Origin: Tubulanus polymorphus
Lineage: Eukaryota; Nemertea; Palaeonemertea; Tubulaniformes; Tubulanidae
Length of the DNA stretch: 64,000 nt
Direction: 5' to 3'
Assembly: GCF_964204645.1 (NCBI RefSeq)
Contig: NC_134030.1
Location: 20,403,110-20,467,109, forward strand
This document shows, in pieces, positions 29,751 through 59,287 of the stretch; positions within the stretch are counted from its first letter, which is position 1, and the number at the start of each line of letters is the position of its first letter. The notes under the pieces are model-generated. The model had not been told where the DNA came from and did no database searches. It was given only the letters and a program-made list of their open reading frames with translations. The position numbers were made by a program, and so were the translations under genes.

Positions 29751-32700
29751 TCAAATATCACATTTCTGTGTGAACTCACTGCCTTCTAAACTTCCATCGT
29801 CTTGTCTGCTATCCCTGGATTCCGTATCCATGGTTGTCGCTACATCTTTCTCCAATCTTGTCCCCTTCACGGCTTCCATATCCATGTAAGGAGTTGTATC
29901 TATGTCCTTCCCGGCTTCCATATCCATGTAAGGAGTTGTATCTATGCCCTTCCCGGCTTCCATATCCATGTAAGGAGTTGTATCTATGTTCTTCCCGGCT
30001 TCCATATCCATGTAAGGAGTTGTATCTATGCCCTTCGCTGTTTCCATATCCACGTAAGGAGTTATATCTTTTCCTGCTTCAAAGTTCTTGGCATTATGAA
30101 TCGGTACGCTATGTACTAATCCAGTTTCAGTATTTCTAACTGGATTTTTGTTTGAAACATTATCGGAATCACTGTCATCATCAAGCTCTTCGTAGATACT
30201 TAACATCTCGTTTGCTGTGTCATCAACTCGTTGCTGCGGTGTTGGAGTATCCACATGACCTTCACCGGACGGTCGATTACATCTGAAATGGATAATTTAT
30301 TCTAGGATAGAATAGAAGCCAAACTTTTTACAAACTTTGATCGAAAAAGTGCATTAAGATCATATTTCGGTTGATTTGAATCCGTCATGTTATAATCAAA
30401 CATGGCCAAAGTGCTAAATTAACTCATTCATAATTATCAAACCTAGATCTTGATATCGTCCATCGCACAGGAGTTCCTTAAAATGTAGTCCCGATTTTTA
30501 CACGAATCCAAACTAGAAAACTAGGGATGTTAAAAGTAAGGTTCTTACATACCTATTGTAAAGTGAACTAGCAGAAAAAAACAACGAAGATTCCGAGAAA
30601 TCGCAAAAATATGATACGGCACAGATGTTGCGTATCTGCAAAATTGGAGCAGCGACGAACGGACGGACGGACGAACGCACGCACAAGGGTTTTTTATGGG
30701 TTATCGCTCGTCTTAACCGAGTTTAGACGTAGAACTAAAATAATGATTTGGAAATTTGCAGCTGTTATAACGGGATTCATGGTAGCGCTGTTCTTGTATT
30801 CATCAAATCTCTGGACATCTTAAAACGATGGGACTCAATGTATACGGATCTTTTCGATGGGGATAGATGGTAGATCATTACATTGGGGAATCGTGTATAA
30901 CAGAATGATTTCATACCTGCGCATGATGATTTCAGCGATTATAATGATTAAAATGCACCCAGTAACCACACTGCTGATGTACAGTATCAAACTGGTCTGG
31001 TCCGTTGTGGTCCGATCAGTTGGAGTGCGGTCAGTTTTGGTCCGATCAGTTGGGGTCCGGTCAGTTGTGGCCCGATCAGTGGTAGCCCGTTCAGTTATTT
31101 TACGATCGGTTGTGGTCTTGTTAGTTACTGTGGTGGTCTTATGAATTTTTGACCGTACAGGTGGGCTCTTGTAACGTGGACCCAGCGGAGCCTAAAAATG
31201 AACAAAACTCTGAGAATCATTACAATTTCAAAAGGTATAATAATGATTATCAATTGATTTAATTAGTCACCATTCATTCAGTTTGCTTAGGCTCATCTAT
31301 CTGTCTATCACCTTACTATATCAAAACAACAAGGGGTGAAACGGCTTCGCTTTTTCCTAGTTTAATTTGACTCTGGATCCAGTCCCACAGTTCTGTGGGT
31401 TTAATTTGAATCTGAATCCAGTTCCACAGTTGTGCGGGTTTAATTTGAATCTGAATCCAGTTCCACAGTTGTGCGGGTTTGATTTGACTCTGGATCCAGT
31501 TCCACAGTTCTGTGGGTTTAATTTGAATCTGAATCCAGTTCCACAGTTGTGCGGGTTTAATTTGACTCTGGATCCAGTTCCACAGTTGCGTGGGTTTAAT
31601 TTGACTCTGAATCCAGTTCCACAGTTGTGTGGGTTTAATTTGACTCTGGATCCAGTTCCACAGTTGTAGGGTTTAATTTGACTCTGGATCCAGTTCCACA
31701 GTTGTAGGGTTTAATTTGACTCTGGATCCAGTTCCACAGTTGTGCGGGTTTAATTTGAACCTGAATCCAGTTCCACAGTTGTGCGGGTTTGATTTGACTC
31801 TGAATCCAGTTCCACAGTTGTGCGGGTTTAATTTGAATCTGGATCCAGTTCCACAGTTCTGTGGGTTTAATTTGAATCTGAATCCAGTTCCACAGTTCTG
31901 TGGGTTTAATTTGACTCTGGATCCAGTTCCACAGTTGCGTGGGTTTAATTTGACTCTGAATCCAGTTCCACAGTTGGATGGGGTTAATCTGAATCTGCAC
32001 CCAGTTCTATAGTTGTGTGGGTTTAATTTGACTCTGGATCCAGTTCCACAGTTGTGGGGTTTAATTTGACTCTGGATCCAGTTCCACAGTTGGGTGGGGT
32101 TAATCTGAATCTGCACCCAGTTCTACAGCGGAGAGCGTTTAACACGACTCTGGATCCAGTTCTAAATTTGTCTTGGTTAAATATGACTCTTCAGCTTATA
32201 TCCAGATACTCACCGGTGCAGGGTCCAGATTAGAATGATCTGAAACAAAGTGTAACCAGCAGAATTAACTTTCAGCGTTTCTGGGTTTGATGCGACGTGT
32301 ATAGCGTTGTACAGAAGGAATAGTTACAGGTATTCCCTCGAGTTAAAAGTAACCAACAAGCAAAAATAAATAAATAACATTTCTAAAAATTCACCAGAGA
32401 TGGATCCAGCATTATTCAAGAAAAAGGTGAACTATTTATTCTAACGGAAGAATTGCGTGCACTGTAGTGCGGACAAATTTGGTGGCTACTTATTGATGGA
32501 TGTCGGTGGATTCGACACATTTTTAGCAATCTATTCAAAACACTATTTTGTCCAGGGGCTCATTATTCAAGCCGATAGACATAACTCATCACCATGAATT
32601 GCTGAATGACGTTAGTATAGATTCGCCAGTGACATAAACGGTTGTAAAAGAATAGGACTAGATAAATCAGCTGTCATTCACGAGGAAGTTCAAGGAATAC

Positions 32701-35700: not shown

Positions 35701-38700
35701 TCAATTGTAAATAGTACACTGTATTTGTATATATTGTAAATACTCTTGTGTATATTTTTAAAATATTTTTTATTTTTCTCTCGATATGTAAATATTTGTA
35801 AACAAAATCTTTTTTTTTTCTCAACGTACCATGGAAATGGTTGGAGAGTAATAAATTATCTTATCTTATCTTATCTTTTATGGTCCGTCACGTGGCGCCA
35901 CCTACTGTATTTTGATATGCTAATGAGCAGGTGATGACGTCACTGTAACGTTTCCGAGCGTCCACGGAGCGGATTCTCAGCATTACGCGAGCGTATGCCG
36001 AGTAAACTATCGCTCATAAATGAAAACAACAACAACTTTAGTAAAAATTGTTTATTTCTGAATGCAAATTCCTCACTGAACAAGTTGATGGTAATAAAGG
36101 TAGATAAACCGATTATTAACGAAATTACGGACCAAAACGTCGCACGGAGAGCAGGTGTGACAGAAGTAGGCTATTTGCAAATCAAATTTCATCCACAATG
36201 CAGTTACGTTCTGTGGCACAATGGGTAAATCACTGGATTACTACTGGATTTTTTTTTCGTTTGGTTTTAATCCCAATATTGCAAGTCTGAGCGTCAACGT
36301 ACTCACATACGGCTAACCTGTAGAAATCACCGTACAGTCACGTACAGGTAACAACAACGTTTGAAGTATTAAGTGAGTACCATGAGTACAATAAGCCTAC
36401 CATGCCTATGTACTACAAACACAACGTTTTACCTCTCGTCCGCCCTACAGTGATGTTACTAATAACTGGTGCCATTATAACATGGATAGGATTTGGTCAG
36501 GACTAGCCTAAAGTCTAATTCAGTCTGTACTAATTCACTCGATAGGCCTATTTTTAAGACAATACAGTGAAGTATTCACACGCAGAAAGGCTAATTGATT
36601 TGAGCCATGTGATTAAATTTTACTCAGGCCTTCTCTGACCTGCTGACATTAATAGTCAAACCTAGATCCAAAACGTTCATGTGGTCACGGCTTGTATACC
36701 AGAAATCATTGTAGGCCTGTACATTTTGCTGTTCGTAGGTTTGGTATACCGATTTCTCCATTTTTGACTGATAAGTGTACAGTATAGCGTACGCATTATA
36801 TAATTGTTCCAATGGGAATAGGGCCTATTGATTGTGATACCTGGAACTAGCTCGGAATAGTCACCAAACACAAACGATATTGAAATAATTTAAAGCTTGA
36901 TTTATTGTTGAAACGAGTCAAAGAGAAAAGAGCTCAGAGAGAGAACGAGAGCCAAAGAGAAAGAGAGCGAGGAATAGAGAGACATGAATTTATATTGCTC
37001 CACTAGACAATGGCCAGACACGTCAGTAGGACAAAGTCCGAATGACCAGTGCCGAGTGAAGTGGACGGTTGGGATTAAAGAGATAAAGACAATATTGCTT
37101 TTGAAATGATTAACATACGGAAATATAGTATAACATGTTTGTAATGAAAACTGAATAATGACTTAGATATTAAATAAATACTATCCTCTGTATCATATGC
37201 CCCACCTTCACTTGATTCGTCCTCGAATCTCAAAATTAAACTATACCGACGAAAAAACTATTGACAACGAGTGAAAAACCACTACTCGATAAAAGATCCA
37301 AACATGAAAAGTAACCATATATACTGCATGATATTCTTCCCTTTAAACACGCAATTATCAGTGGGATGAAAACCTGGAAGACACTTAAATTACGCGGATG
37401 ACACTAACGACTTATCATTGTAGCAAGAAGACGTAGACACACGGAAAAAATGTATACAGGTCCACCACTCAACAATTAAGCGTAATCAGGAGAAATAAAC
37501 AAAGATAGTACATGATTCATATGAATGGAATCTAACCCATATAAAGATAGGCGTATAGGTTGTCAATAATAGTAATGTGGTCAGTACGGCAGTAAATATC
37601 ATTGTCACTTCTAAAATAAATATCAAAGTCCAATAAGTGGACTGCACGCACAAAAATAAATGAAAACTATGGCGCGATAGTAACTAAGTAAGTATCAAGT
37701 TCCACATACACGATAATAAGTATATTAAATATTTCTAATAAAAGGCGGGCTGACACAGAGGCACGCGTTTTGTAAAATAAAAAAAAACATTAGCAACAGC
37801 CGATCCTCTTTGTTCTGTGTTGGGGAGAGGACTCAGAAAACCCCAAACGGTATCAACCATACATTAGCCCTTTTTCCTTGACGAGAGTGGGTTAACTCCC
37901 GGGTTATTTCTGTGCTGGAGGAACCACTCCAGAGAAAAAGCAAAGAGTGTTAGCCAAATATAGTTATGCAAAGGCTAGCATTTGATATAGTACACAGCGC
38001 ACACTTTGTTAGTCTCCGAGACATCAGGTTTAGACATCTATGCCGGACAACAGGCTTCGATACAGGTTTGTGGACGTCTCTCCATCGGATGTTCTTGAGA
38101 CTACAGGTTTGTGGACGGTTCGACATGACGTGTGTTGTTGGTTATTCGACATTGGGCTTACCACCTATGTTGACGCAGGTGGGGCCAGCAATGTCTAGTT
38201 GTCACGTTCACATCTACAGTCCATCTCGTAGTGAGTCTGACAAAGGTCAGCTTGGTGCGATAACTTCTTTAGATAGAGTTGATGACTTCTTACGATTTTT
38301 CATCGCTGTCTCCGGTGTAAACAATGTGGAGTACCGATACGTCTGGAAGAACTTGTTTGTGGAAGAGGCCTCGTATTCGAAGACCGCATTGTGGCACTTG
38401 GCGTCTGTGGTTTTCCTCAGAGACTATTTAGGGTGTGACTTCTGACGGAGATGTGACATCGACCTGAGACTATATCGCATGCGAGTCATTTACATAGATT
38501 ATAGATCAAATTGATATATTAAACTACCTCCATGCTTTCCCATATCAGACGCGCAAATGGATGATACCGATATTAGTTAGGAAAAGATAGTTAGCTTAAC
38601 GATAGCATAAAGCAAAAAAAAAAAAAACAAAAACAAGAAAAACTTAAGCTGTTGCACCTGCAAAAGAACGTTTTGGATTAGACAAAATAAAACATTGTAG

Positions 38701-41700
38701 GAAGCTCTCTCATAAAATTTTGTTATAGAATTTGAAAAATATGAGTAGTTTGATAAAAGGATATCTCTGAGCTAGTGTCGCAGCAGTAATGGATATTCAC
38801 GATCTGCAAAAGACTTTTGTGAGTACGTGTAACTAATGATTATTAAGGTTTAGTGGTTGGGTAAACTTAATCAAGTGTCGGAAGTGCAATCATTTTACCA
38901 TCCGTGAATGAAAGATATAGATAAGTATCATAATAGTTAGAGTTAATAATTTTTATTAATTGGATGTACGCGCACCATGACATTCTGGTTAATTCAGGTA
39001 AGTCGTGCCGCCGAGAATTTGCTATAATTTGACTGTTTCCCCAATAGGTCGAGAGATAAGGACTTAAAAGCTTGACCTGACTTGTTTTCCTTAGACCATT
39101 GGGGGCGTGATTGATATAATAGTGATGTGGACAGTCAGGAAGATTTAAAATAGTTATATTAACGCTATCGCTGATGTTAGCCAGTGAGAGGACTAAAGAA
39201 CAGCCGCTAGTACGTAACGGATATACCATTCGGAATATATTCTTTAAAATTAATAAAGACAACCGAAATAACACATAGCCGGCTAACAACAAAACGATGA
39301 AGTGTACGTTCTCCTGAATATGCGAAGAAATTAATTCAAAAGAGGATACAAAATCGGTTGTAGCATTGTCGGTAGCCGGATTGCTTTGTTCGTCAGGTGG
39401 ATAAAAGGCTAGTGTTTCATTTATCGTTATTTTAAATGAATTTGCCGACGGATTGCTGGTTGTTGCGAGAGGTGCAAACAAAGTTGCCGCTCTTCTTCGA
39501 TTAGTACAGAATAGATACAGCGAGAAAGTCAAAGCTAACAAACTTGAGATTAATGATGTAGAGGCAATAATTTGTGAGGAATCAATACTAAAAGAACTTT
39601 TATGCCACGGTGAGGCGAAGTTAGACCCAAAGGAACTCTACTGGGTGCAAGAACAGGCGTTACTTGGCCGTAAACAGGGACCGAATGAGCCGGTGAAATC
39701 ATACTCGGAGGACCTCACCTCTAAATTTGCGAAATTGAAAACACCTCCTCAGACGCGATTGCAAGTCTTTTTGTTAGGGTTACGAACGGATCTAAAGAAA
39801 TTTGTTTTGACTCAACAACCTCGGTCAGTTGATGAGGCTGTTAATCAGGCCCTTACGGCAGAGATTATTACGCAGCTAGATCCTCCTGCAACACACTCAG
39901 TTGCCGCCCTTAAAGGCCAGGAGCAGGATAAAATGGAATTGTTGATTAACGAAATAAAATCTCTACGAGCTGACCTCACTTCTCAATCAAATTTCCAAGC
40001 AAACAATAGGCCGGCATCAGAAATTCCTTACTGTAATTACTGTCAGAGATCAGGTCATTCTGAGCGTACTTGTGATCGCAGGTACAATTCAAGAGGTCAG
40101 CAGTCTAGTTATCGGGGTCAAGGGTTGCGTAGGCAAAATTATTCGAGGAATAATTACCGTCGGTTTAATCCTGATAACCCGACAAACAATCGAAACTATA
40201 CACATAGGGGTAATTACGATGTGATGGAATATGTCCATCAGTCGTTTTCTATGTTGTAACTGGAGGGTGCTGCCCTCTCTCTCTCGAAAATACAGAACAA
40301 TAGGTGATTGTGTTAATATCTTTTGTCCGCCTTTTTACTGGTTTTTGGGCTCGCAGAGTCGATATTTGGAGGAAACTTCTACTGTGGAACAGGCAGAATA
40401 GGACCTCGTTACATCTGGTGGCAGCGTAGTGGGATTTGATTGTGAAAAAACCCGTTGAAATTGAGTTGAAGCGGTGAACACGTTTTTCTCCGTTTAGTCT
40501 GTGTAAATTACGGTTACTTTTTGTGTGTACTTAACGTATTTTTTTTTTACCTACTTCGTAATTCCTAGTACATATTTAGTATTATTTAAGTGCCTGTTTC
40601 CCCTACATTTATTTGCGGTCCTGTATTTTCTGTGTCATTTATATAAAAGAAACCCTAATGCGAAACAACAACTACGCCGTGTTAGATGTCTACTGTATCC
40701 AGAGCCGAGAAGTTTGGAGCTTAATATACTATTATAAGGACTATAATTAAATTTGCGTAGATATTTTGACTATATATTCCTGTTCAAATAGGAGTTTGAA
40801 CAAGTTGAAGGGGGTAGTGTGATGGAATATGTCCATCAGTCGTTTTCTATGTTGTAACTGGAGGGTGCTGCCCTCTCTCTCTCGAAAATACAGAACAATA
40901 GGTGATTGTGTTAATATCTTTTGTCCGCCTTTTTTACTGGTTTTTGGGCTCGCAGAGTCGATATTTGGAGGAAACTTCTACTGTGGAACAGGCAGAATAG
41001 GACCTCGTTACAACGACAGGCAGCAGTTTCCCAACTCTACCTATCACACGAATCAGGGAAATTAGGCACGGCTTGTATCAACGTGGGTGATAACAGCCAA
41101 CCACATGCACATAACCCCACGAACCATTTACCAACATCCCCTCCTAACATTAATTTCGATACTTTTGCAGATGATTCCGCTAATTCTGACGTTTTTAGCA
41201 GTAAATTTCATATTGATTTTTGTGACTGTTTGCTCAGAATATTTTATGTTTTCATGGCGTTTTCCCTACTTATATTCTTTTTATGCAAAGACATCGTGTG
41301 TAGAGCCACTCCATTTCTTATCAATGTTTTCATCGTGCTATTCAAACTTGTACAACGGTCAGCACGTGGCAGTATAACCATATTTGCTAAGTCTCGTGTC
41401 TTGGGTGAGTCTCTCTATTGAATTATTTGTTATCATATTAGCCTATTTATGAACGGCATCAGTTTCCCGAAATGTGATGAAAAATGTAAACAGTCGCCGA
41501 TAGTGAGCGAAAATAGTCAAAAGTCTTATAAAATTTTAGCATCGGTCGCCAATTCAATTCCCGGAAAAGTTAGTGGAACAAATGTTACTATTTTAATTGA
41601 TAGTGGTAGTGACTTGACAGTCGTTAGTAAATCTCTGTTTGATAAATTAGACAGTTGCGAGCTAATTGACCCCGATAAAAGTATCAATGCCCATTCAGCT

Positions 41701-44700
41701 AATGGATCTAATATTCGAATGTTGGGCGTCACTGAATTAAAACTTAATATTGGGCTCTGTGATTATGATATAACTGCACATGTAGCGGCAGATTTGGCAT
41801 ACGACGTTATTTTAGGTATGGACGTTTTGATACCACAGGGAGTTATTATTGATTTAGGGGAAGGTACCGTACAATTCCCTGGTAGCGGTCCTCTGATATT
41901 ACAGAAGCAATACGATCTTGTAAATGATGCCCAACTGCGTGTCAAAGAAACCACTGTAGTTCCACCTTTTTCAGAAATAGTCATACCGGCAAAAATATCA
42001 CAATCCGTTTCAAATGGGACCGAATGCATAATTGAACCGAGTCTCAAATTACACAGAACAAATTTGATTGGTGCTAAAGTCATTGCTTTAGTCAAGAAGA
42101 ACTCAGTTCCATTTCGTATTTGCAATCCTACCGTTAAACCCGTGAAACTTTATAGAAACACAACACTTGGTCATCTATCTACAGGATCGTTTGACATCAT
42201 AGATACAGATGTACAAAACGAATCAGCAAGTATACCGGGACCCAACATTTGTAATCTTAATTGTCAGCCTGGGAACCTGAAGTATGAAGACCCACCTGAC
42301 GTCAACCTAGGTAAATCGCAACTTTCAGGCTCAGAGAAACAGCGTCTGCGTAAACCTCTCTTGAAGTACCGTGACGTTTTCGCCAATAGTGATGACGAAC
42401 TGGGTCATTCAACGTTAATAGAACATCATATCGATGTCCAAGGCCACCCTCCTATCAGGCAACGAGCCTATCGACGGACCCCAGACATGAGAAAAATCGA
42501 GGAGGAGGAAGTAGATAAGATGGCACGTGCCGGGATTATTCGAGAATCTAACTCGCCATGGAGTAGCCCGGTCGTGCTAGTTAAAAAGAAAAATGGCCAG
42601 ACTAGGTTCTGCGTAGACTATCGGAAGGTCAACGAGGTCACTCGGAAGGATTCATTCCCGATGCCTCGTTGTGACGATATAATCGACAGTTTAGGTAGTT
42701 CCCAGCCAAAATTCTTTCATCACTAGATTTGCGATCTGGTTATTGGCAATTAGAGGTTGACGAAGATTCGAAGCCAATCACTGCGTTTACCTGTAGTCGT
42801 GGCCTGTTTGAATTTAATTAATTCAGTTGGAAGATATGTCTAATTTACCTCGACGACGTTGTAGTATTTTCCAATTCATTTGAAGAACATTTGGAACATT
42901 TAGAGCAAGTTTTCCAACGGCTAAGAGAAGTTGGACTGACTCTGAAGCCGTCCAAATGCAACTTCGCTATGGCAAGCATTCTTTACTTAGGACACGTTCT
43001 CAGCGCCAAGGGAGTCGAACCCGATCCTGAAAAGTGCAAGGCAATTTTGGAGTACCCAATTCCAAGAACGTTGAAAGATCTAAGATCATTTGTAGGCCTG
43101 GCTACGTATTACAGGAAATTCATTCCCAGATTTAGCGAAATATGCTCACCTCTATATGCCATGACCAAGAAAAATGCAAAATTTGATTGGACACCTGAAT
43201 GTGACAAAGCCTTTAACACATTAAAACAACGACTCACGACTCCCCCCGTATTAGCATTTCCCGACTTTAATCTACCCTTTGAACTGCACACAGATGCCAG
43301 TGCAACAGCAATAGGGCTGGTATTGTGTCAGCGTGTGGATAATAATGAACGCGTTATTGCGTATGGGGGCCGGAACCTCCTCCCTAGGGAAAGAAATTGG
43401 GACACAACCCAACGGGAGATGGCTGCTGTCATGGAAGGCATCAAGAAGTTCAAGCCCTACCTCCACGGTCGTAAGTTCCGTGTCGTTACAGACCACAATG
43501 CACTCCGTTGGTTAATGACATTAAAAGAACCTCAAGGACGATTATGTCATTGGGCATTAGCATTGCAAGAATACGACATGGAGATTGTGCATCGTGCTGG
43601 TCGGGTACACAATAACGCGGATGCCTTATCACGTCGAAACTATATCAACACCATTGATTCAAATCAGGTTTTGAACATTTCAAATGAAGATAGGGTTGAG
43701 TATCCCTCTGTGTGCGTTTGATAAATGAGATATTGTCTGTCTTTGGTTGATACTCAACCCTATCTCATTTATCAAACGCACACAGAGGGATGACCCTTTT
43801 TCTTTAGATTTGATAAAGTACTTGAATGATAGAGAATTACCCGAAGACAAGAAGGCCGCTAGAAACATCATCCTCCAGTCTGAATTTTTCTGTCTACGCG
43901 AACACGGATTATTATGGCGCAAGTCCAAATTGAACCGATCAAAACATCCGGGACAAATTCTGTTTCAATTATATATCCCTCCATCATTGAGAGAGGACGT
44001 TCTCATAGCTTATCATGACGATGTTTTGGCTGGTCACTTTGGTTTTGATAAGACCTACGATAAAATACGAACGAAATACTACTGGCGAGGCATGTACGAA
44101 GATATAGCACACTGGGTCAGGTCATGTGTATTGTGCAATACCAAGAAAGTACCGAAACACAAGCTCACGGCACCCCAGATCCCTTTACCTGCAGTAGATT
44201 CTCCGTTCGATCGAATCGCAATTGATTGCGTAGGGCCAATCCATCGCAGTAGGAAAGGGAACCAATATATTGTAGTCATAACCGACTATTCGACACGTTG
44301 GGCCGAAGCCTTTGCCACCAAATCTATTTCTGCAACTGTGATTGCTCGCATTCTGTTTGATGAAATTCTATGTACCCACGGCGCACCACTCACAATTAAT
44401 TTTGAGTGACAGAGACCTTTCTGTCTTCTCTTGTAAGAGAACTATGTGAATTATGCAATACTACTCAGATCCGTACTTCCGCTTATCACCCATGTACAGA
44501 TGGACTTACTGAAAAGTACAATGGCACTTTAGTGCAAGGACTGAGCATGTTTTGCAATTCAAAACAGACTAACTGGGATGAATTCATCAAGCCACTCCTT
44601 CATGCCTATAGAACTACCATCGTCAAAAGCACGGGCTACACACCATTTTTTCTCATGCACGGTCGTGAAGCTAGGACACCAATAGACACCTCACTCCTAC

Positions 44701-47700
44701 CTCCTGAACATGAATTCTACTCAGCTGATGAATATGTCCAAGAAATGGGTAGAAAGTTGCAAGAAGCTCGCATTTGGGCCAAAACAAATCTGGAAAATAC
44801 TCAGGTGATCGCGAAATTGAAACATGATCAACGACACAAGGTCACAGATCCTGTCTACCAGGAAGGCGACTTAGTTTGGCTTCGGACTCCAAAGACAATA
44901 AAAGGGCTATCTAAGAAGTTGCTTCATCCATATTCTGGACCATTCATTATCTTCAAGAAAACATCGCCCGTTAATTATCTCCTTAAAACACGAGCTGGTA
45001 GAACCCTTAAATCTCCCGTGCACGCCAACAGACTTAAAATGCACACTGACCCTAATGCTCGACGTGTCGGAATTCAGAAATTTGATCGTGATTTGCAAGT
45101 TAAAGTACAACCCCAAATACCCAGGAAACAAGCACAGGTTGTCCCTCAACAACAGGGAGGTAGCGATAGCAATAAACCCAAGGATTCCGAGCCAACGGCC
45201 GCATCCGCGAATAATCCAACACCACCAACTACAACTGAGCACACAATCACAAAGAATCTTCCCGATCCCGAACTTAAATCCCGGAACAAAAAGCAATCAG
45301 ATGTCTTTCCCGTCGAATGCCTATTAAAATCACGGAAATCGAAAGGTCGCTTACAGTACCTAGTACAATGGGCTGGTAACTATCCTCCCTCATGGGAGCC
45401 ATCAAGAAACGTATCTAAAGACCTAATTGAAAAATTCCGGCTGGATAAAAGACAATGATCTTATCGTGTCGTTTTCCATCTATTTTTCAGACAATGATGA
45501 TTTATCCAATATTTTTCATACTGATGGTGATGGGTACAGGGACCGGTGCTGCGAGGGAAAGGTTGATACTCCGGAAAGATTACGGTGTCTTGTTTACGCA
45601 ACAGGGCCAGATCGACAACGCTGGGTCAGCATGGAGCCACACGTATGCTCTACCTTGGCTGCGTTATCCCCTGCCGCACATGACACCACCTTCCTGCCCG
45701 GGTTCTCCACCAATGATACCTAGAACTAGCTCGGAATAGTCACCAAACACAAACGATATTGAAATAATTTAAAGCTTGATTTATTGTTGAAACGAGTCAA
45801 AGAGAAAAGAGCTAAGAGAGAGAACGAGAGCCAAAGAGAAAGAGAGCGAGGAATAGAGAGACATGAATTTATATTGCTCCACTAGACAATGGCCAGACAC
45901 GTCAGTAGGACAAAGTCCGAATGACCAGTGCCGAGTGAAGTGGACGGTTGGGATTAAAGAGATAAAGACAATATTGCTTTTGATATGATTAACATACGGA
46001 AATATAGTATAACATGTTTGTAATGAAAACTGAATAATGACTTAGATATTAAATAAATACTATCCTCTGTATCAATTGGGCTTATTATTTCCTGCTTTAG
46101 AATACTGAAATAAGCCCAACGTTCATTGAAATATCCAACAACGGTGAAAGTTTGATTACTGTATACATGTACTGTAGGTTTTCATGTTGTATGAATATTT
46201 TGCAGTTCAAATGGGTATGATGCTGATTCCAATGTACAATAAACACATGAAGTTAAATGGTCAAGGACAGTCAACACCAAGATATCTCTCTTCGACCGAT
46301 GTTGTACCATAGAAGATCTGATTCTTTCAACTCAAGCAAAGTGATTCTACACGATCGACATAACACTGGAATAGGTTTGTAATGACTAACAGTTCATTTC
46401 ATTTAGTCCTATGCATTTTTTAGCCAATTTGGCTTTGATTGTAATTGAAACTCTAGTAAGACGATTTGAAAAAACACAAGTTATGCTTGATTCTCATATT
46501 CAAATTTAATTCAAATTTGTTCTATTACATCATATTTACAAAGCGTATCATTGGTTCATACAGTAATAAAAATTAGGACAGAACAAATATTATTATAGAA
46601 TTTTCAAAAAGGCAATGAAGTTCTATAACTAAATGAACACTATTTTTTAGCTCGGCTGTGACCGAAGGTCAGCGGAGCTATTGGGTTAGGGGTAAGCCGT
46701 CATCGTCCGTCCGTTCGTTCGTCTGTCAACTTTTTCTTCAAATCGCTACTAGTCGTGCAGTTTTAATCAGATCAATTCCAAATTTGGTATCAGTGTTCTA
46801 TGGACCTAGCCCTAAAAAGTTACTGAGCCATTTTTGATTCTTCTCCCAGAGGGCGCCTTATGGGGTTGGAGTTCCTATTTCTTCAAATCGCTACTCGTCC
46901 TACAGTTATAATCAGATCAATTCCGAATTTGGTGTGAATGTTCTATGGACCACGGCCTATGAAGTTACAGAGCCATTTTTTGATTCGTCCACCAGGGGGT
47001 GCCCCTGGGGGTGGAGTTTCTATTTCTTCAAAATTGCTATTAGTCATACAGATTTAAACAGATCAAGTTCAAATTTGGTATGAATGTTCTATGGACCAAT
47101 GCCTACAAAGTACAGAGCCCTTTTTGGATTTGGCCAAAAGGGAGCACCCCTGGGTATGCAGCTTCCATTTCTTCAAATCACACAGCGGAGCTATATAAGC
47201 CGATAGGCTCCTTGTCTCATAACTCAGATCGAGAGTGACTCTCCCGTTTATTAGGAAACACACGCAACCAGTGGAATAGGTTTGATTTACACACATGTTG
47301 CAGGTATCAATTGTTAATCACTATAGAATTTATAATCCATAAAAGCCAAAATCAGCCGGAAACCCAGACCAGATCAATTCATAATTTATTGATTGAATCT
47401 ACACTACAATATATGTATTTATTCAAATATTTCAATAAAAATATTAACTTCTTCAATCTATTCTAAATCATAATACGTTCTTATCTGTGAATTCACTCAA
47501 TCTATCGACTCAACAGGTGCTTAAGATGGGTTCTTAATAGGACAGATCCATTTTTAAGCGTGGTGATAATACAGTATCATGATGTTTGAATGCCAAAATA
47601 AATGCCTGGTCAAATAAATTAATATTTGTTGATTATACGTCCGCGTATGTTCGGTTTCAAAGCTGAATCACATTTGACGTTTACACAGTGGTTGCATATT

Positions 47701-48643
47701 AGGTTCGAATCTGTCAATGCATTTTATACTATGTATCGGTATTTCAATTTACTACAATTCCCATCATTCTGAATGGCTTTGCAGAAAACACGTCATCGCT
47801 GCTTCGCAGCTATATTTAAAATTACTGTTTTCGAACTAACTTGTTCCTATGGAAAATGAAATGGATTGGTGAATCTCATTCTTATCAAACCGAAGGGGAA
47901 TTATTACCGACATCCCAGGCATTCAAGGTTAGAGCAAATGACGACTCAATTTTAACTAATTTCTTACCGGTATCACGAACTACGATCAGATCAAGCTGAA
48001 CAGGTTCCGGATTTGTAGGTGTTTCCTTAACAAGACATCTAAATGATGATCCATTGTGAAGTTTGAAATCTGCCTTGAATGTCAGATTAGCGTAAACAAA
48101 TACGTTCTGTTTGATATATCTGTGAAGTCGTTTATCTCCAAGAACTGGTCCCCACGATTCTGAACCGCGTCTCCTCTGTTCAAACATCAACGTAGGCGTC
48201 GATTTGTCAGTCCTTGCTCTACACTTATAAAGCACATTCTCCCCTTGTTTCTTCTTGTCTGGCTGACCACTGAGATCAGGAAGCAGGTGAATAAATCGAT
48301 GGAAACCTGAAACATAGTGTCTCATTTAATCTGCATGTTATTTGAGAGATTCTCGCGGTTTCGCGTAAAAGTATAGAATATGGATTATTATAAGAACCAG
48401 AAATCGTCATGATTTGAACGTCGACATTTTTACAGCCAATTGTGAATAAATAAGTCAAAGGAAATAAGTACGTATGTAAAAGCGTTGTTTAATAGAAAGG
48501 CCATGTAACGACTTAGAAAGTTAGATGTTTTCGAGTTTGAGTAACTTACTTCTCTTTCCCTTCACTCCAGACAATTCTGCATTGTGTACGTTTCCCAGTT
48601 GCAGTAACACGATGCAGATCAGTACAGACCAGTTCCTCAACAT
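29751..48643 (-). CDS. Transmembrane Ig receptor with tandem YMDM tail (gene 3, intact)
   Basis: Minus-strand exons 48643-48550, 48306-47968, 32239-32214, 31191-30917 and 30282-29751 join in frame to 421 residues. Residues 1-22 are a signal peptide ([13 protein letters not shown]). Residues 32-144 are an Ig domain (YKCRART...[13 protein letters not shown]...FRCLVKE). A 26-bp mini-exon leads to a Thr-rich stalk of TTDRx pentads, then a TM helix at about 220-243 ([16 protein letters not shown]). The tail has SIYEELDD, then one YVDM and four YMDM motifs in a 14-residue repeat. YMxM is the consensus docking site for PI3K p85 SH2 domains, and YEEL resembles a Src-type or ITAM-half site. Intron 2 is 15.7 kb and holds the Gypsy element; the same intron in gene 4 is 1.6 kb. 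Joining across that gap is supported by matching phase, exon order and paralogy. Confidence 0.8.
29868..30077 (-). repeat. 42-bp coding repeat encoding YMDM motifs
   Basis: Five 42-bp units in the tail exon of gene 3, each encoding a 14-residue segment with [10 protein letters not shown] or a close variant. Gene 4 has three units (about 55497-55610). Unit length is a multiple of 3, so unit number can change without breaking the frame. Confidence 0.9.
31365..32160. repeat. 39-bp minisatellite in intron of gene 3
   Basis: About 20 units containing CCAGTTCCACAGTTGTG and GGGTTTAATTTGACTCTGGA. The same intron of gene 4 has about six degenerate units (53800-54050). The unit matches the terminal part of the foldback element at 58742-58975. 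The 39-bp unit gives stop-free frames on both strands that are not thought to be genes. Confidence 0.9.
33829..33960. repeat. Foldback repeat next to a lone hairpin unit
   Basis: ATAATCTTGTTTCATA...AGGTCGAGCTCAC (33829-33871) is answered by GTGAGCTCGACCTTT...TATGAAACAAGATTAT (33919-33959), giving arms of about 40 bases around a 47-base centre. A single unit of the AGGGTTTTCTGT hairpin follows at 33960-34012. Confidence 0.75.
34250..34277. repeat. (AATTC)n microsatellite, retroelement-tail-like
   Basis: Five AATTC units run into ATATTTATTTCACGG. Pentanucleotide tails next to AATAAAT-type sequence are common at LINE/SINE 3' ends, here read on the minus strand. Confidence 0.5.
35287..35645. repeat. 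Hairpin satellite array, 7 units
   Basis: Units start at 35293, 35347, 35398, 35452, 35509, 35563 and 35614. Each has the perfect inverted repeat AGGGTTTTCTGT / ACAGAAAACCCT around a 6-base loop, joined by spacers of AAT repeats plus CACGCGGATATCAAT or AAGAAACACGCGAATCTC. One unit has a broken stem (ACCATAA). Spacings are all multiples of three (51, 54 or 57), so both strands stay open. A unit in the opposite orientation lies at 33960-34012. This is not a CRISPR: spacers are near-identical and the genome is animal. Confidence 0.85.
35660..35880 (+). mobile_element. Retroelement 3'-end family, copy 2
   Basis: Related to 11590-11785. It ends with ACCATGGAAATGGTTGGAG, GTAATAAATT and a (ATCTT)n tail, as expected for a LINE or SINE 3' terminus. 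Confidence 0.6.
36214..36273 (+). mobile_element. Degenerate tRNA-derived SINE (internal promoter)
   Basis: TGGCACAATGG (36214-36224) fits an A box and GGTTTTAATCC (36263-36273) a decayed B box, at tRNA-like spacing. No tRNA cloverleaf remains. Confidence 0.4.
36835..37195 (-). repeat. Left LTR (functional 3' LTR)
   Basis: 361 bp. Preceded by target duplication ATTG. On the minus strand a purine tract (GTGAAGGTGGGGCATA, about 37211-37196) immediately precedes the LTR start, as a polypurine tract should. Confidence 0.85.
37216..38866. other. Element sequence between polypurine tract and env remnant
   Basis: A 159-residue plus-strand frame at 37966-38445 has no recognised domain and contains the phrase TACAGGTTTGTGGACG in two variants. 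It may be non-coding 3' sequence of the element. Nothing else is supported. Confidence 0.4.
38867..39455 (-). pseudogene. env C-terminal part (minus strand)
   Basis: The minus-strand frame contains a membrane-spanning segment (HFIVLLLAGYVLFRLSLLI) followed by a cytoplasmic part with SLANISDSVNITILNLPDCP and LSPYLSTYWGNSQIIANSRR, and ends at 38867. Membrane anchor plus tail at the 3' end of a Gypsy element fits an envelope-type protein; the assignment rests on position and layout. It breaks off near 39.45 kb, where gag begins on the other strand. The N-terminal piece is at 45455-45690 in the opposite orientation. The central part of env is not in the window. Confidence 0.55.
39453..41065 (+). 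pseudogene. gag: gag, 5'-truncated and split by a miniature LTR element
   Basis: The frame from about 39480 to 40219 has a retrotransposon gag core (LYWVQEQALLGRK, a QVFLLGLRTDLKKFV segment) and a CCHC zinc knuckle (CNYCQRSGHSERTC), then an Arg/Asn-rich tail. At 40220 a 793-bp LTR element is inserted with target duplication ACGA. Coding resumes at 41017 in the same frame after one duplicate is discounted, and ends at a TAG at 41063-41065. The N-terminal part of gag is missing at the inversion breakpoint. Confidence 0.8.
40220..41012 (+). mobile_element. TRIM-like miniature LTR element inside gag
   Basis: Direct terminal repeats of 194 and 195 bp (40220-40413 and 40818-41012) begin TGTGATGG and end GTTACA, differing mainly by one T in a T run. 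ACGA is duplicated at 40216-40219 and 41013-41016. TCTGGTGGCAGCGTAG directly follows the left LTR as a primer site, and AAGGGGGTAG precedes the right one as a purine tract. The 404-bp interior encodes nothing recognisable, so mobilisation must have used another element's proteins. Confidence 0.9.
41449..42726 (+). pseudogene. pol: pol part 1: protease and N-terminal reverse transcriptase
   Basis: Aspartic protease with DSGSDLTVVS near residue 52 and a later VILGMDVL strand, then the RT start (HHIDVQGHPPIRQRAYRR, SSPVVLVKKKNG, RFCVDYRKVN). The frame ends prematurely because one T is missing from a T run near 42713. The Gypsy-type RT block SSLDLRSGYWQ continues in the next frame. A hydrophobic frame between gag and this region (to 41421) is unassigned. 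Confidence 0.85.
42727..43721 (+). pseudogene. pol: pol part 2: reverse transcriptase C-terminal part and RNase H
   Basis: After SSLDLRSGYWQ (motif A) the frame meets a stop at about 42820. It resumes at LIYLDDVVV (motif C), so the intervening block that normally carries the MPFGL/NAPATFQ segment has been deleted; this RT cannot be active. Downstream are the RT connection (FVGLATYYRKFIPRF) and RNase H (LHTDASATAIGLVL, TDHNALRWL, NADALSRR). The frame stops at 43719 in a small inverted duplication. Confidence 0.85.
43689..43791. repeat. Small inverted duplication breaking pol
   Basis: The segments GATAGGGTTGAGTATC and CCTCTGTGTGCGTTTGATAA (43689-43731) recur in reverse at 43749-43791 but with the two blocks swapped in order, around a short centre. 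It interrupts pol between RNase H and integrase. Confidence 0.85.
43747..44409 (+). pseudogene. pol: pol part 3: integrase, N-terminal zinc and catalytic core
   Basis: HHCC zinc finger (H...H in AYHDDVLAGHFG, then CVLCNTKK) and the first catalytic Asp in IDCVGPIHRS, with the second expected Asp region near 44400. The frame is lost at THGAPLTI, where an AATT-like insertion shifts reading before the SDR segment. Confidence 0.85.
44406..45458 (+). pseudogene. pol: pol part 4: integrase C-terminus with chromodomain
   Basis: Continues with SAYHPCTDGLTEKYN, which carries the catalytic Glu, then a GPY/F-type module (LHPYSGPFIIFKK). After a Pro/Gln/Thr-rich linker comes a chromodomain (VECLLKSRKSKGRLQYLVQW, then SWEPSRNV). 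This 350-residue frame is itself open; the break lies at its upstream junction. Its TGA stop overlaps the env ATG (ATGA at 45455-45458). Confidence 0.85.
45455..45690 (+). pseudogene. env N-terminal part (plus strand)
   Basis: Starts at an ATG overlapping the pol stop by ATGA, a layout that allows reinitiation. It encodes a hydrophobic signal-like segment (IYPIFFILMVMGTGTG) and then LRKDYGVLFTQQG and a WSHTYALP motif typical of the start of Gypsy-type env proteins. It runs directly into leader and primer-site sequence of the opposite orientation near 45.69 kb, the second inversion breakpoint. Confidence 0.6.
45696..45712 (-). other. Primer-binding site
   Basis: On the minus strand TGGTGGAGAACCCGGGC follows the LTR end by one base. 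It begins with TGG, complementary to a tRNA CCA end. Its strand agrees with the LTRs and not with gag-pol. Confidence 0.7.
45714..46074 (-). repeat. Right LTR (functional 5' LTR)
   Basis: 361 bp, 3 differences from the left LTR, followed by target duplication ATTG at 46075-46078. On the minus strand it holds ATATAAAT and, about 100 bases on, AATAAA. Confidence 0.85.
46660..47180. repeat. 145-bp tandem repeat, 3 units
   Basis: CTTCAAATCGCTA-like starts occur at 46736, 46881, 47026 and a partial one at 47171, exactly 145 bases apart. Shared phrases include AATTCCAAATTTGGTAT, TGTTCTATGGACC and ACAGAGCC. It is bordered by AGCGGAGCTAT on both sides (46672 and 47184), so it may be the interior of a larger element. 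Confidence 0.85.
47181..47960. other. Intron 2 of gene 3, right part; nothing else seen
   Basis: AT-rich, no coding potential supported. A GGTTCGAATCTG piece at 47702 resembles a B box only. Confidence 0.5.
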
Positions 48644-49071: not shown

Positions 49072-50364
49072 TTTAATTTGTAATCAGGGGGATTATATCT
49101 TAATATAAAATATTCATATGAATGTAAAAATATCCTTACTGGGCATTGTTCAATTTGACTGGAGCTCTCGGTGAGGCGTGAACGCGGATATGCAAGAAAA
49201 AAGGCTGTATACGTCCCTCATCATACCGTGGACTCTAATACGTTTTAGAGTCCGTGATCATACGTAGCCGGGCAGTCCATATCGACGGAACAGGATTACT
49301 GGATGAATATCGGTAATGCGACTGCTATGCGCTGGGAAATACTAACTTTGTCAAATCATCCGACCGTGCAACAACGATTAATATTAACCCAGAGTGTAAA
49401 ACATTGATTAAACTTCAGAAGTCTATCGTAGGTTATAAGACGACCGTGTTGCCGTTACGGAATAGTTTTATTTTTCATACCGCACAAAATACGTATAAGA
49501 TAAGAGATATCGTAGTGAAGATGTTCATATCGTCCTCGTTCATTTCTATTGACAGTCCTTCGAACAAATAGCTGGTTTTGGACTCTGGCATATAACATCG
49601 TTCCATTTACCACTACCTCGATACATTTCAACACAACGTTCGACCATACGACGACGACCCTTCCATCCGGTTACACTCGGCTCCACGGGAGCCGAATTCC
49701 TGAAATCCTGCAAACAGATAAAAAAACTTCCTTATGAATCAAACCAGAATCAGTTATATTAATATCTAAGGATAAACCAAGGTCGGATCGAGGAGCAAAA
49801 TCGTTTAATCGCCAGTATAACTTAACTAACCCATTCTGTCGCGGTATTAACGATTTTGCATAAAAACATGTGCACTGAAAGTAAATATCGGTGAGGCTTT
49901 TTCGACACTTGACTCGTGGATGTGACCATTTTCGAGAACAGTTTTGATCAATAATTGGTCGTTTGTATACAATCAGTTAGCACGGTTAAAAATGACACAT
50001 TTTCATTTTGCACATAGATGTATGACAAACATTGCATATACATGCTTTTACACAACGTTCAATTGCTCAATTCCCAATCAAAAGCGAATACCAAAACCTT
50101 CCTTAAGCAGAGCTGAAAATCATAAAAGTACTGGAAATTGAATGAATGAATTCCTCTTTATTCGGGTTTGTCCAGTAATTTCTTGCTATATAATTTAGCC
50201 TCAAACCAGCAGATATAGGACATATTTTGCATGTACGAATATTGTACGAATGTCTTGCGTCAATTCCAGCGCCCACCGCCTGTTTCGACTAATAGATCTT
50301 GACTTCAGACTTTTTATCTATCGTGTAGATGCGAGTATGCAAAATTGAGTCGAAGTCCCGGTTC

Positions 50365-50585
<221 letters not shown>

Positions 50586-50769
50586 AAACATACTTCAATC
50601 AAACATACTACCAATCATTATCCAAATCTTCCGTATCAATTTCACATGAGCGATGCGGAACATAATGTTTTGTATCTGCCATACGAACAGTTTCGAATCA
50701 GGTATGGCAAAGAACTGATCCGTTCTTTTCTGCATAGTTTTACTGGGTGTTTGAAATCAAAACCAGAGA

Positions 50770-53700
50770 ATGTTGAGTAACTGGTCTGTACTGATCTGCA
50801 TCGTGTTACTGCAACTGGGAAACATTCACAATGCAGAATTGTCTGGAGTGAACGGAAAGAGAAGTAAGTTACTCAAACTTGAAAACATCTAATGACTTTC
50901 TTTCTTTGGTCGTTAGTTACATTTGCAAATATCTCACTGCGAACGACGAGTAGGCACTAGAGTTGATTTAAGAGAAAAAATTGTTTTATCGCGATAGAAT
51001 ACCTCATATGATGTATATATAGAAACATTACCAAATGTTTGCATAGTTTTTGATATGATAATGATATGATTTACTTTGTTGAAATAAATCTTACCAAATT
51101 AATAAGGTCATGGAAAACTTGTTTAAGATTAAATGTTAAGAACAACTTTGATGCATCGTTTAGCTTATACAAGAAAACAGAAAAAAATGAAGATAATAAT
51201 TAAAAATGAAAGGAAACACTGCATGGTACAGATCATATTATAACGGTTTTTTTCTGAAAATGCAGGCCTAAAATAGCTAAAGGCGTTTTGAATTAGTGCT
51301 AATTTAGTGATAATAAAAAAGATAAAAAAGGATTGTTGGCCATTTAAAAAAAACAATTTTTACTTTTTTTCATCTTAATCACACCACCATAATATATGTA
51401 TCTGTTTATTTATGTGATATGATTTTAGATTAATTATTAGAAAACTATACATGATACAGATCATATCATAACCTTTTTCTGGAACATGCAGGCCTATACT
51501 AACTCAAGGCGTTTTGAAATTAGTGGTAATGAAGAAATAACAAAAACGAATTGTTGGCTATTCAAAAAACACTTTTTAAATTTCTTAATCTAATCATACC
51601 ACAATAAAGAACCTAGATGTAATGAAAATCTGTTATCTGAAAATGCGGATATTTAAATCATGTAGAATTTGGGTTAAACGGCGGTGAAACTGATTTGTCA
51701 GAGCAGTTTTCATTCTACTGTTCAACGAAATGTCTCAAATAACGTGAAATCATTGGACAAACCATTATTTCCAGGTGCTCTACAGTTTATTGGCCAGCGT
51801 CCTGTTCCCGCAGGTAAGCCGAACAGGATAAACCAAGGACAAGAGGTAGAATATGTGTGTAGAACAAAACCTGGAAAGTCGGTGACAACGTTGATGTTTG
51901 AACAGAAGAGACGAGGTTCTGAATCGTGGGGACCAGTTCTCGGGGACAGGCGACTCGACAGATATGTTAAAGAGAACGTACTTGTTATCGCAAAGTTGCA
52001 ATTTAAGGCAGATTCCGAACTTCACAATGGAACGACTTTAAGATGTCTTGTAAAGGAAAATCCTACAGATCCGGAACCTGTTGAGTTTGATCCGATAGTA
52101 GTTTTCGACACCGGTAAGTAACAATTGAAATGCGTTAATCACGAACCAACCTAGAGAGGTGGTGGCTCGTCGAGATTGCGTTGCCACTCATCCAGGGGCG
52201 GATCCACAGGCTAATTTTGAATGTCTTGTCCCAAAATGGCACTTTGATGTTCAAATAGGAAATGTTAATGAGACTTCAGAAATGCACTTTCATTTTTGTT
52301 GACAAAATGAAAAAGTGCTCCAAGAAGATTTATGGACTTGTTCAAATCTCTAAAGTCCCCTTGGATCCGCTCTGTGAATAGCATAGTCAGCTAGGATGGA
52401 CTATTCATCTGCGATTTGGTTCGAGTTATAACGGCTACACGAACAGTTTCCGCGTAGGATCTGTGGCCACTTTCTATCATAAACGGAATTTACTTTGAGC
52501 TTTTATAAAATAGTGTCATTAATATCAAGGTATCTCTCGTAAACTATGATAGATAAATTGGTTAAACGGCAAAAATAGCTGTTTAGTCTTTGTTAGATTG
52601 TGTGTTCAAGTAAGGACCTAATCCATTTAACATAAAGCCATTGTATATCATCCATATTTAGCATATTTGCTTTGTCTAACAATAAAAATGGCGAATGTTA
52701 GATAGATAAATGTCATTTCGTTCTTTCAGTAAAATCATAAATTTGATTATCAGAGAAAATAAACAAACCGATTTTCCTCATTCTTCAAGTCGATGATATT
52801 TGATTCCCGTTTTGCTACGTGCATATTAAATAGAATAGAACTAAAAGCACAGTTTTAATCATCACTCGTAGTACATCACTCTATTATTTAGCCCGATTGA
52901 AATTCATCGATCAAGCAATTATTTTCAAAACGACAAGTTACCAGAGAAGCAAGACTTTGGATAAAAATGATAAGTTTGACGCTGGTCGGTAATTTTAGAA
53001 AAAGAAAACCAAATATTGCTTTTTTAGTAATAGCCTTAAAATAGAAAGTTTAAACTGTGATGGAACTATACCGCATTCGAGAGAAAAGTTGACGATTTTA
53101 GAGACCAGAGAGGCATTTCTGTGAAAGTGTAGATAGATGGAAGCGGGTCGAGCTCACTATTTGTGGGTTTTCATATCAGAGATCAACTTATCAATTAAAC
53201 CAATTCCTCTGAAGCAGTTGAGATAAGTAGAACAATATTGTATGTTTCGCATCCAATTTTGAGCTATTAGTAATTAGGAAAGCCTCTCTGATGGTCTCGA
53301 CCATATCAACAAAAAATGTTCTGAAGTTTTCAATTAATTCAGACGTATTTTCATGATCGGGCCAGTCAGTCTGAACGTGATCGTAAAGAAGGGCACTCAC
53401 TGATCTAAATAAATCTTAACCTAAACAAATCTAAACATTCGCAATGTTGTCAGAATTAATACATCAATAAATTCTGCAAATATCTCCGCTCTGCAGTATT
53501 GTAAGAATATCCAAATCTTTTGTTGCCGGTGTATGTTAGGAGTAATCTGTACAAATGATAGTGCGTTTTCGAAGAAGCGACCGGTTTTATTCTGAGTTAA
53601 TACTTGTTTCGTCTCTCTAGTTTTGCTACTTTTTGTACTTCGAGACAAATCGGTAACTTCCATATTCATAATGCTCAATTTTATACACGTCTGCAAACTA

Positions 53701-55690
53701 ATCAAACCTAAACACGCTGAAAGTTAATTCTGCTTGTAACACTTTATTTCAGATCATTCAACTTTGAATCCATCATCGGTGAGTACCTGGAGTCAAATAA
53801 AAAACACACATTTTGTAGAACTGGACCCAGAGTCAAATTAAACCCACATAACATTAGAACTGGATTCAGAGTCAATTTAAATCCACTTAACATGGAATTG
53901 AGTCCACAGTCAAATTAAACCCACACTTGATGGAAATGATCCAAAGTCAGATTAAACTGCGCAACTGTGGAATTGGGTCCAGAGTCAAATGAAATCCACA
54001 CAACTGTGGAACTGGGTCCAGAGTCAAATGAAACCTACACATCTGGGTTCGGTATCAAAAAATGCACAAGATGAGCTGAACCAAACAGAATTAATGATAA
54101 CTAAAGTCAATTGATCGTTTAAAATCGTAATAATTCTCAGATTTTTGTTTACGTTCAATAGCGTAGATACATCGATCAGACTACAGTGGGTCCCAGTAAC
54201 CGGGTCGCACCTGACCAGACCACTACTGACCGGACTACAACTGACCAGACCACTACTGACCAGACCACAACTGTTGGGACTAAAACTGACCAGATCCCAA
54301 CTGATCGGTCTACAACCGACTGGACCAATGTGATACTATACATCATCAGCGGAGTTACTGGATGCATTTTAATCATTATAATCGCTGAAATCATTATGCG
54401 CAGGTATGAAATCATTCGGTTATACAAGATTGTTCAGCGTGATGATCTAACCTTCGAAAACATAATATATGTCCCTTTTACCATCGTCTAGCTCATATCG
54501 GCGTCAAAAATTCACTGTCCAGACATTCGATTTCGCATATAAGCTTATTTCATAAGTTAGGCATTCGACAGTCATTCGATTTCTTAAATTAAATTTCATT
54601 AAATTTCCATATTATTATAAGCATTCTGGTTCCATTCGACTTTCTTGGATGCGCTACGCGAAACATAAATTATCTATTAGATGATTCCTTACTTTTGTCA
54701 TTTCTTGGAATATTATATATTCCAAGAAAATATATATCCAGAAAATCATATATTTCGATATTTTTTTTAAATTATCACACAGGAAAACGACTTTCCTAAG
54801 AAAGATGAATGATAACTATGTCCAGACATTCGACTCCCAAACAAAAGTTTTTGATTTCAGTACCGTACGACTCTGACGTCGTATCAGCGTCGTTGACGTC
54901 GAATGTCTGACATATTCCTGGACAGGGCGTGTCAGGATAGGTCCAAGACCAAATGGCACATAATGGATGTTCCGTCCTCAGAAATAACCCGATGTTGGGT
55001 TGGGGGTAGTGACTTATTTGGAGCTGACTACATCACGAATTCTAGTCACCGTTTCTTTTTAAATTCGACTTAGAGGACTCAACGACTTTAAGAATTTTTA
55101 AAACTCCGGTCCAAATGATTTCAAGATTTAGGTTTGATACTTATAAATGAGTTAACTTGGCCTGTTGGTCATGTTGGATTATCACATGACATGATTTGTA
55201 TCATCCGATAGATTATCTTAATTCACCCTTTCGATGGAAGTTCGTTAAAGTTGCTTGTTATTCTATCCTAGAATATATTACCCATTTCAGACGCAATCGA
55301 CCGTCCGGTGAAGGTCATGTGGATAATCCAACACCGCAGCAACAGGTTGATGAAACAACATGCGAGATGTTAAGTATCTACGAAGAGCTTGATGATGGCA
55401 GTGATTCCGATAATCTTTCAAACAAATATCGAGTTAGAAATGCTGAAACTGGATTACTGCATAACATTCACAAGGACTTTGAAGCCAGGAAAGATAAAAC
55501 TTCCTACATGGATATGGAAGCCGGGAAGAACATAGATACAACTCCTTACGTGGATATGGAAGCCGGGAAGGACATAGATACAACTCCCTACATGGATATG
55601 GAAGCCGTGAAGGGGACAAGATTGGAGAAAGATGTAGCGACCACCATGGATACGGAATCCAGGGATAGCAGACAAGACGATGGAAGTTGA
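50770..55690 (+). CDS. Transmembrane Ig receptor with YMDM tail (gene 4, intact)
   Basis: Exons 50770-50863, 51775-52113, 53753-53778, 54180-54403 and 55291-55690 join in frame to 360 residues, with the same phases and 26-bp mini-exon as gene 3. Residues 1-22 are a signal peptide. Residues 32-144 are an Ig domain ([10 protein letters not shown]...[13 protein letters not shown]...LRCLVKENP). A stalk of TTDQ/TTDR repeats leads to a TM helix at about 204-226 ([17 protein letters not shown]). The tail has SIYEELDD, then YMDM, YVDM, YMDM. A TGA replaces the TTA of gene 3 near the end, shortening the tail by about a dozen residues. It is divergent from gene 3 and convergent with gene 5. Tyrosine-based signalling and PI3K recruitment are inferred from motifs; ligand unknown. 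Confidence 0.85.
52130..53190. other. Intron 2 of gene 4; nothing else seen
   Basis: No second Ig exon was found between the first Ig exon and the mini-exon, so this receptor appears to have a single Ig domain, unlike gene 2. Confidence 0.6.
53191..53705 (-). other. Unrecognised protein-like frames antisense in intron
   Basis: Two consecutive minus-strand frames (53705-53421 and about 53415-53191) have protein-like composition ([36 protein letters not shown]) but are separated by a stop or frame change. They could be a fossil of an inserted gene or chance. No family recognised. Confidence 0.25.
53800..54050. repeat. Degenerate 39-bp minisatellite in intron of gene 4
   Basis: About six diverged units of the array seen at 31365-32160, in the mirror orientation and at the same place relative to the mini-exon. 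The array predates the gene duplication and expanded or was lost afterwards. Confidence 0.75.
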
Positions 55691-59085: not shown

Positions 59086-59287
59086 AATGACGTTATAACA
59101 ATGACATCGATTGAATTTCTAGCGGATAATGAATAAAAGTACGTATTTTGCCCTATATAATAACAGATATGCTCGTGCCTTGATAAGGAATATTTATCGA
59201 TAAAACATTTTGTTACGGAGCGCTTAGATAAATCGAATGGGTTTTCCCTTTGCTTATATTGATGAAATTGGACGCAGAAATCGTTAG

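Follow-up and report, generated by a model that had tools for sequence, protein, structure and literature searches.

Ig-fold receptors with tandem, putative PI3K-docking tails in the ribbon worm Tubulanus polymorphus

Introduction

The immunoglobulin (Ig) receptors CD28 and ICOS and the adaptor DAP10 recruit p85 of phosphoinositide 3-kinase (PI3K) at the cell surface through YxxM sites (YMNM, YMFM and YINM), with one YxxM per tail. ErbB3 and IRS are docking proteins with several YxxM motifs; together with PDGFR and BCAP, they represent kinases, pseudokinases or cytosolic adaptors in which several irregularly spaced pYxxM sites per tail or adaptor recruit PI3K multivalently. Such docking is described for pY740 and pY751 of PDGFR (PMC3613897) and for BCAP (PMC6937578). 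Tandem pYXXM motifs activate class IA PI3K far above a single motif, and one standard activating peptide contains PDGFR pY740 and pY751, which are 11 residues apart (PMC3613897). The window analysed here is a stretch of 64,000 nucleotides (C6:20403110-20467109) from the palaeonemertean ribbon worm Tubulanus polymorphus, whose assembly comprises 268 Mb in 77 contigs. It contains two genes, genes 3 and 4, which probably encode Ig-fold receptors with a multivalent PI3K-docking tail; we assign a probability of roughly 0.6 to this reading, in which PI3K recruitment is the best-supported mechanism. As in CD28, ICOS and DAP10, the YxxM sites are predicted to recruit p85 at the cell surface; however, the T. 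polymorphus family carries up to 19 sites per tail, and no sequence relation to these three proteins was found. Multiple YxxM motifs per tail are shared with PDGFR and its functional counterparts, whereas the proteins considered here are kinase-less Ig receptors with near-exact 14-residue repeats.

Among invertebrates, Botryllus FcoR and Hydractinia Alr are likewise clustered, lineage-specific families of Ig-type transmembrane (TM) proteins with tyrosine-motif tails. Their motifs comprise the immunoreceptor tyrosine-based inhibitory motif (ITIM), the corresponding activation motif (ITAM) or hemITAM, and Yxx[ILV] (PMC12065747). In the main text of that review, the strings PI3K and YxxM are absent, and PI(3)K is listed among expressed proteins. 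No Alr or FcoR receptor turned up in our general protein searches, in which no direct comparison with these receptors was made. A sequence-only reading of the present DNA had proposed that tandem YMDM motifs on an invertebrate Ig receptor are not a described receptor class. This proposal agrees with the literature covered: open-licence PubMed Central (PMC) full texts, from which a paper on lamprey BCAP was retrieved, yielded no description of an invertebrate Ig receptor family with tandem YxxM repeats, and open-licence PMC papers yielded none of nemertean Ig-type immune receptors of such design. Ig-fold receptors with phosphotyrosine docking tails are already known as a kind; in this family the tails take the form of tandem PI3K-type arrays.

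Structure of genes 3 and 4

Both genes are split into five exons, and their GT/AG introns agree in order and phase. Gene 3 lies on the reverse strand and consists of exon 1, which encodes a signal peptide recognised by eye (48550-48643); exon 2, a phase 1-1 exon that encodes the Ig-fold ectodomain according to splicing and predicted structure (47968-48306); a 26-base linker exon 3 (32214-32239); exon 4 (30917-31191), with a Thr-rich stalk (30994-31140) and a TM segment (30925-30993); and exon 5 (29751-30282), which encodes the cytoplasmic tail with SIYEEL at 30183-30200 and five Y[MV]DM repeats at 29868-30062. Spliced together, these exons give a continuous open frame of 421 aa; all four introns have GT/AG ends, and the product is identical over 421 residues to RefSeq LOC141906754 (P0002). 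The gene 3 junctions that had been proposed from the letters alone (48550/48306, 47968/32239, 32214/31191 and 30917/30282) are thereby borne out, as are the uninterrupted frames of both genes.

Gene 4 lies on the forward strand and encodes an uninterrupted 366-aa frame. Its exons encode a signal peptide, again recognised by eye (50770-50863), the Ig-fold ectodomain (51775-52113), a 26-base linker (53753-53778), a Thr-rich stalk (54213-54326) with a TM segment (54327-54395) in exon 4 (54162-54403), and a tail (55291-55690) with SIYEEL at 55373-55390 and three Y[MV]DM repeats at 55499-55609. RefSeq LOC141906755 (P0001, 295 aa) corresponds to residues 72-366 of this product. That model begins at 51894, at a Met within the Ig exon, and thus lacks exon 1 and the start of exon 2. 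Independent support for exon 1 of gene 4 is therefore missing; RefSeq models are themselves predictions. All eight donors of the two genes agree with the consensus at 7 or 8 of its 9 positions; no more than 3.6% of GT dinucleotides across the window score as well.

A hydrophobic stretch of TM grade occupies approximately residues 218-247 of the gene 3 product (Kyte-Doolittle means over 19 residues reach 2.7). The stalk contains 22 Thr in 72 residues and is probably O-glycosylated. The single TM segment followed by an Arg-rich end suggests that the tail is cytoplasmic. The predicted structure of the ectodomain displays an Ig beta-sandwich, which places it in the Ig superfamily fold, and the models support type I single-pass receptors with an Ig-fold ectodomain. 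The Ig domain of the sequence-only reading therefore stands as a predicted fold but not as a sequence match: searches of 17 members gave no Pfam Ig match at E values as high as 10, a profile of family members did not match the PDB, and the best single-sequence PDB match was DCC at E 0.14, with weaker matches after it. Among the matches listed in the fold comparison are many Ig domains, including that of BTLA, and one bacterial S-layer protein found with Foldseek. Because many Ig domains match equally well, the fold match does not discriminate between families. Comparison with CD28-family V domains gave no sequence match, and the fold is common to many Ig families. BTLA has Grb2, ITIM and immunoreceptor tyrosine-based switch motif (ITSM) sites; like the present proteins, it combines an Ig domain with a tail of mixed docking motifs, but it has no YxxM array. 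Weak matches to TMEM154, glycophorin and protocadherin were rejected as stalk or TM matches under the Pfam cut-off.

Tail repeats and a putative p85 partner

The gene 3 tail contains five Y-M/V-D-M motifs (YVDM and four YMDM) and the gene 4 tail contains three (YMDM, YVDM and YMDM); the recount reproduces the numbers that had been given for both. Shuffled tails contain on average 0.34 (gene 3) and 0.31 (gene 4) YxxM motifs. The repeat unit is 14 residues, DTTPY(M/V/I)DMEAGKGK, encoded by 42 bases, in a tail that is probably disordered. Across the 268-Mb genome, a degenerate DNA pattern for YMDMEA found 35 exact matches, and the reversed control pattern found 0.

The genome also encodes p85 with both SH2 domains. 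The p85 iSH2 domain matched over the curated cut-off, whereas one of 14 control genomes matched, below the cut-off. Exons beside iSH2 read as the p85 nSH2 and cSH2 domains, with FLVR and FLLR motifs; of the four SH2 exon pieces, two scored over the Pfam SH2 cut-off, one scored below it (E 0.005), and one gave no match alone. By analogy, the 14-residue repeat would set neighbouring tyrosines at a spacing close to the 11 residues of PDGFR pY740/pY751.

A family of tails with mixed motifs

Genes 3 and 4 had been presented as a pair. They are an inverted-duplicate pair, but not a stand-alone one, as they belong to a family with dozens of loci. A protein search with spliced gene 4 retrieved 14 proteins, all from T. 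polymorphus. The gene 3 ectodomain matched the genome 69 times, but several of these matches fall in signal-peptide exons or represent a second domain within a single gene; such ectodomain counts are lower bounds. Tail queries gave 66 and 73 genome matches, often several per exon, which group into approximately 41 tail-exon places: 30 on C6 at 17.5-22.8 Mb, eight on C9, and one each on C10, C11 and C19. Ten of the C6 tail exons, at 21.75-22.09 Mb, share 96-100% identity with the exon used as query. Thirty-four places were fetched and used, several of which are fragments or contain stops; the other seven are five of these ten near-identical C6 copies and C9 4.405 and 4.504 Mb. Parsing succeeded for 32 of the 34 tails (the exceptions being C10 0.77 and C9 4.907), and flank-anchored repeat units were obtained from 30, with the overlapping locus L030 dropped. 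No relative outside T. polymorphus was found in protein searches (1412 candidates; best 7998 candidates; 278 candidates), and the family is provisionally considered lineage-specific, so far to T. polymorphus alone.

Three further RefSeq models, which could be mis-joined, carry the tail module. P0018 (RefSeq LOC141907020) has the same stalk-TM-tail module with an ectodomain that does not match the Ig members significantly (best E 0.20), and exon shuffling of the signalling module is possible. P0013 and P0020 share the tail module; their ectodomains are weakly similar to the Ig members, partly via the signal peptide.

The 32 parsed tails contain 126 YxxM motifs (1 to 19 per tail, with the maximum at C6 22.814 Mb), 51 YxN motifs without a +3 Met, 53 Yxx[LVI] motifs with neither feature, and 96 other tyrosines. 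Successive YxxM motifs are spaced by 14 residues in 72 of 94 pairs. YMNM and YINM cores also occur in paralogue units. A membrane-proximal Tyr ahead of acidic residues is invariant in an 11-sequence alignment (Y275). The membrane-proximal site takes the forms YEEL, YEDP and YDEL.

This diversity raises the main rival explanation, in which the tails are mixed SH2 scaffolds of either sign. YxN is a Grb2 motif; such tails would engage PI3K via YxxM, Grb2-type adaptors via YxN, and phosphatases or SAP-like proteins via ITIM/ITSM-like sites, and single paralogues could be activating or inhibitory. The numerous YxN and Yxx[LVI] sites beside the YxxM motifs agree with this explanation, as do the paralogue strings VTYHQL, VTYINL, VTYMNL, YSYA[STL]V and TPYMN[VI]. 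Furthermore, +2 Asn is found in 18 of the 21 distinct Tyr units that lack the +3 Met and in 11 of the 105 that have it, although these represent few events by clade. YxxM is nevertheless the largest class and the sole repeated class in genes 3 and 4, and we regard the mixed scaffold as unlikely, although it is the strongest competitor. The same sites bear on the sign of the signal, which had been taken as activating from the lack of an ITIM. Genes 3 and 4 indeed lack an ITIM of the narrow consensus, but their SIYEEL fits the broad consensus [S/I/V/L]xYxx[I/V/L], and the strict VxYxxL is found in paralogues; an activating role is therefore not established.

Selection and repeat spread

Repeat units were recognised from flanking sequence only (6 of 11 residues), with the four core residues excluded from the score, which gave 182 units in 30 tails and 146 distinct 45-mers. 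Tyr is kept in 126 of the 146 distinct units while its silent position turns over (TAC 68, TAT 58). In the common unit, ATG encodes both +1 and +3, which makes the two positions equally mutable. Outside the locus at C6 22.785 Mb, which was excluded post hoc after its pattern was seen, +1 is non-ATG in 35 and +3 in 19 of 124 distinct units (p = 0.02); parsimony on a poorly resolved unit tree counts 32 changes at +1 and 19 at +3. These patterns argue for selection on the YxxM motif with moderate strength.

The preference for Met also bears on endocytic sorting, in which Y-x-x-hydrophobic repeats would serve as AP-2 internalisation signals of scavenger or uptake receptors. YMDM, YVDM and YEEL all fit the AP-2 consensus YxxPhi, with Met, Val or Leu as Phi. 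However, AP-2 needs no long arrays, and the +3 Met is present in 105 of 126 distinct Tyr units though Leu, Ile, Val or Phe would serve; this reading is the least probable of those considered.

Over 19 chosen pairs, the Ig exons have a pooled dN/dS of 0.59 and the non-repeat tail one of 0.57, so both are constrained. Diversifying selection on the Ig exon was rejected, as its pooled, rather than site-wise, dN/dS is below 1. The distal tail and 3´ flank of genes 3 and 4 are 95.6% identical, compared with 82-87% in other coding blocks, which points to probable gene conversion between the two genes. Repeat spread and gene conversion account for part of the tail similarity. Taken to the extreme, the 42-base unit would be a neutral minisatellite, propagated by unequal crossing-over within a disordered tail that tolerates it, with a motif of little function. 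The exact 14-residue period, the copy number of 1 to 19, the conversion tract, the degraded array at 22.785 Mb and the stops in some tails are expected under neutral spread, but the retention of Tyr despite silent turnover, the +1/+3 contrast outside 22.785 Mb and the constraint on the non-repeat tail are not. In addition, a diverged C9 group lost the array yet retains one YMDM. We consider neutral spread highly improbable, nearly as much as endocytic sorting.

Several observations weigh against PI3K docking as the principal role of the tails. At least one YxxM occurs in all 32 parsed tails, but every tail was found with YMDM-bearing queries, so this universality is partly by construction. ITIM-like sites are present in several paralogues. 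Over all distinct units, the difference in non-ATG codons is 36 at +1 against 24 at +3 of 146 (p = 0.11), and the units are not independent, so that support for selection remains moderate only. At the 22.785 Mb locus, half of the units lack Tyr and many others lack the +3 Met. Finally, genes 3 and 4 were rejected as mutual confirmation of the distal repeats because of their 95.6% identical tract.

The tail at this locus (L061, C6 ~22.785 Mb) is approximately 670 residues long, and its units mostly alternate between FMNM and YMNV; the pattern reflects a pair of neighbouring units, one having lost Tyr and the other the +3 Met, that was amplified as a block.

Genomic setting

All four genes lie within an inverted duplication (21798-60438). 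Genes 3 and 4 are arranged head to head with a gap of approximately 2.1 kb, and each arm contains one convergent neighbour of the same ectodomain type. Gene 1 (24925-28490, forward strand; RefSeq LOC141906756, 276 aa) combines this ectodomain with a second Cys-bearing domain and has no YxxM tail; its hydrophobic C-terminus appears, by eye, similar to a glycosylphosphatidylinositol signal. The intact Ig-type exon of gene 1 is closely preceded by a further copy (25550-25852, forward strand) that contains an internal stop. Gene 2 (56709-59103, reverse strand) is the inverted equivalent of gene 1; with its ectodomain exon disrupted by a stop and a frame change, it is probably a pseudogene.

A long terminal repeat (LTR) retrotransposon labelled gypsy-like (36835-46074, forward strand) sits in intron 2 of gene 3. 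Its LTRs (36835-37195 and 45714-46074) are 99.2% identical, which suggests a recent insertion, and its internal open frame matches reverse transcriptase and RNase H families. The intron measures 15.7 kb because this element and minisatellites lie inside it. A minisatellite of approximately 39 bases directly follows exon 3 in both genes (31360-32190 in gene 3, 53790-54045 in gene 4), with a far higher copy number in gene 3. Elsewhere in the window, a long tandem repeat at 16629-18731 is open in several frames, reads as STGTACIQPGRRVFNRDGVY-type repeats and is probably a satellite. Gene exons at 3046-4546 (reverse strand) encode LDL-receptor class A domains (Pfam E 1.3e-10), and the adjoining stretch appears lectin-like by eye.

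Model and implications

We infer a scheme for PI3K docking in which the ligand, cell type, phosphorylation, p85 binding, glycosylation and sign of the signal are all postulated. Ligand-driven clustering would lead to phosphorylation of the tail by a tyrosine kinase. Each pYxxM would accept one p85 SH2 domain, and adjacent sites could take both SH2 domains of a single p85. This engagement would lift the inhibition of p110 and produce PIP3 at the contact site, with the number of YxxM repeats (1 to 19) setting the gain. Other SH2 proteins may dock at the membrane-proximal YEEL/YEDP/YDEL site and at the YxN and Yxx[LV] sites of paralogues.

A broader and more tentative proposal, which we consider possible but doubtful, is that the family forms a tandemly expanded, lineage-specific repertoire that signals mainly via copy-number-variable PI3K arrays. 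Repeat number would tune gain, and changes of the +3 Met to Val/Ile and of the +2 Asp to Asn would switch sites to other SH2 readers. Allorecognition or pathogen recognition might then be based on PI3K, not on ITAM/ITIM; any role in immunity or allorecognition is conjecture based on how the family is structured. The invertebrate Ig families described in PMC12065747 use ITIM/ITAM-type tails, from which PI3K-type arrays would differ. If the proposal is true, the variable-repeat arrays would constitute a natural experiment on multivalent SH2 docking versus signal strength, and the family would be a candidate for a recognition system among nemerteans, about whose immune receptors little is known.

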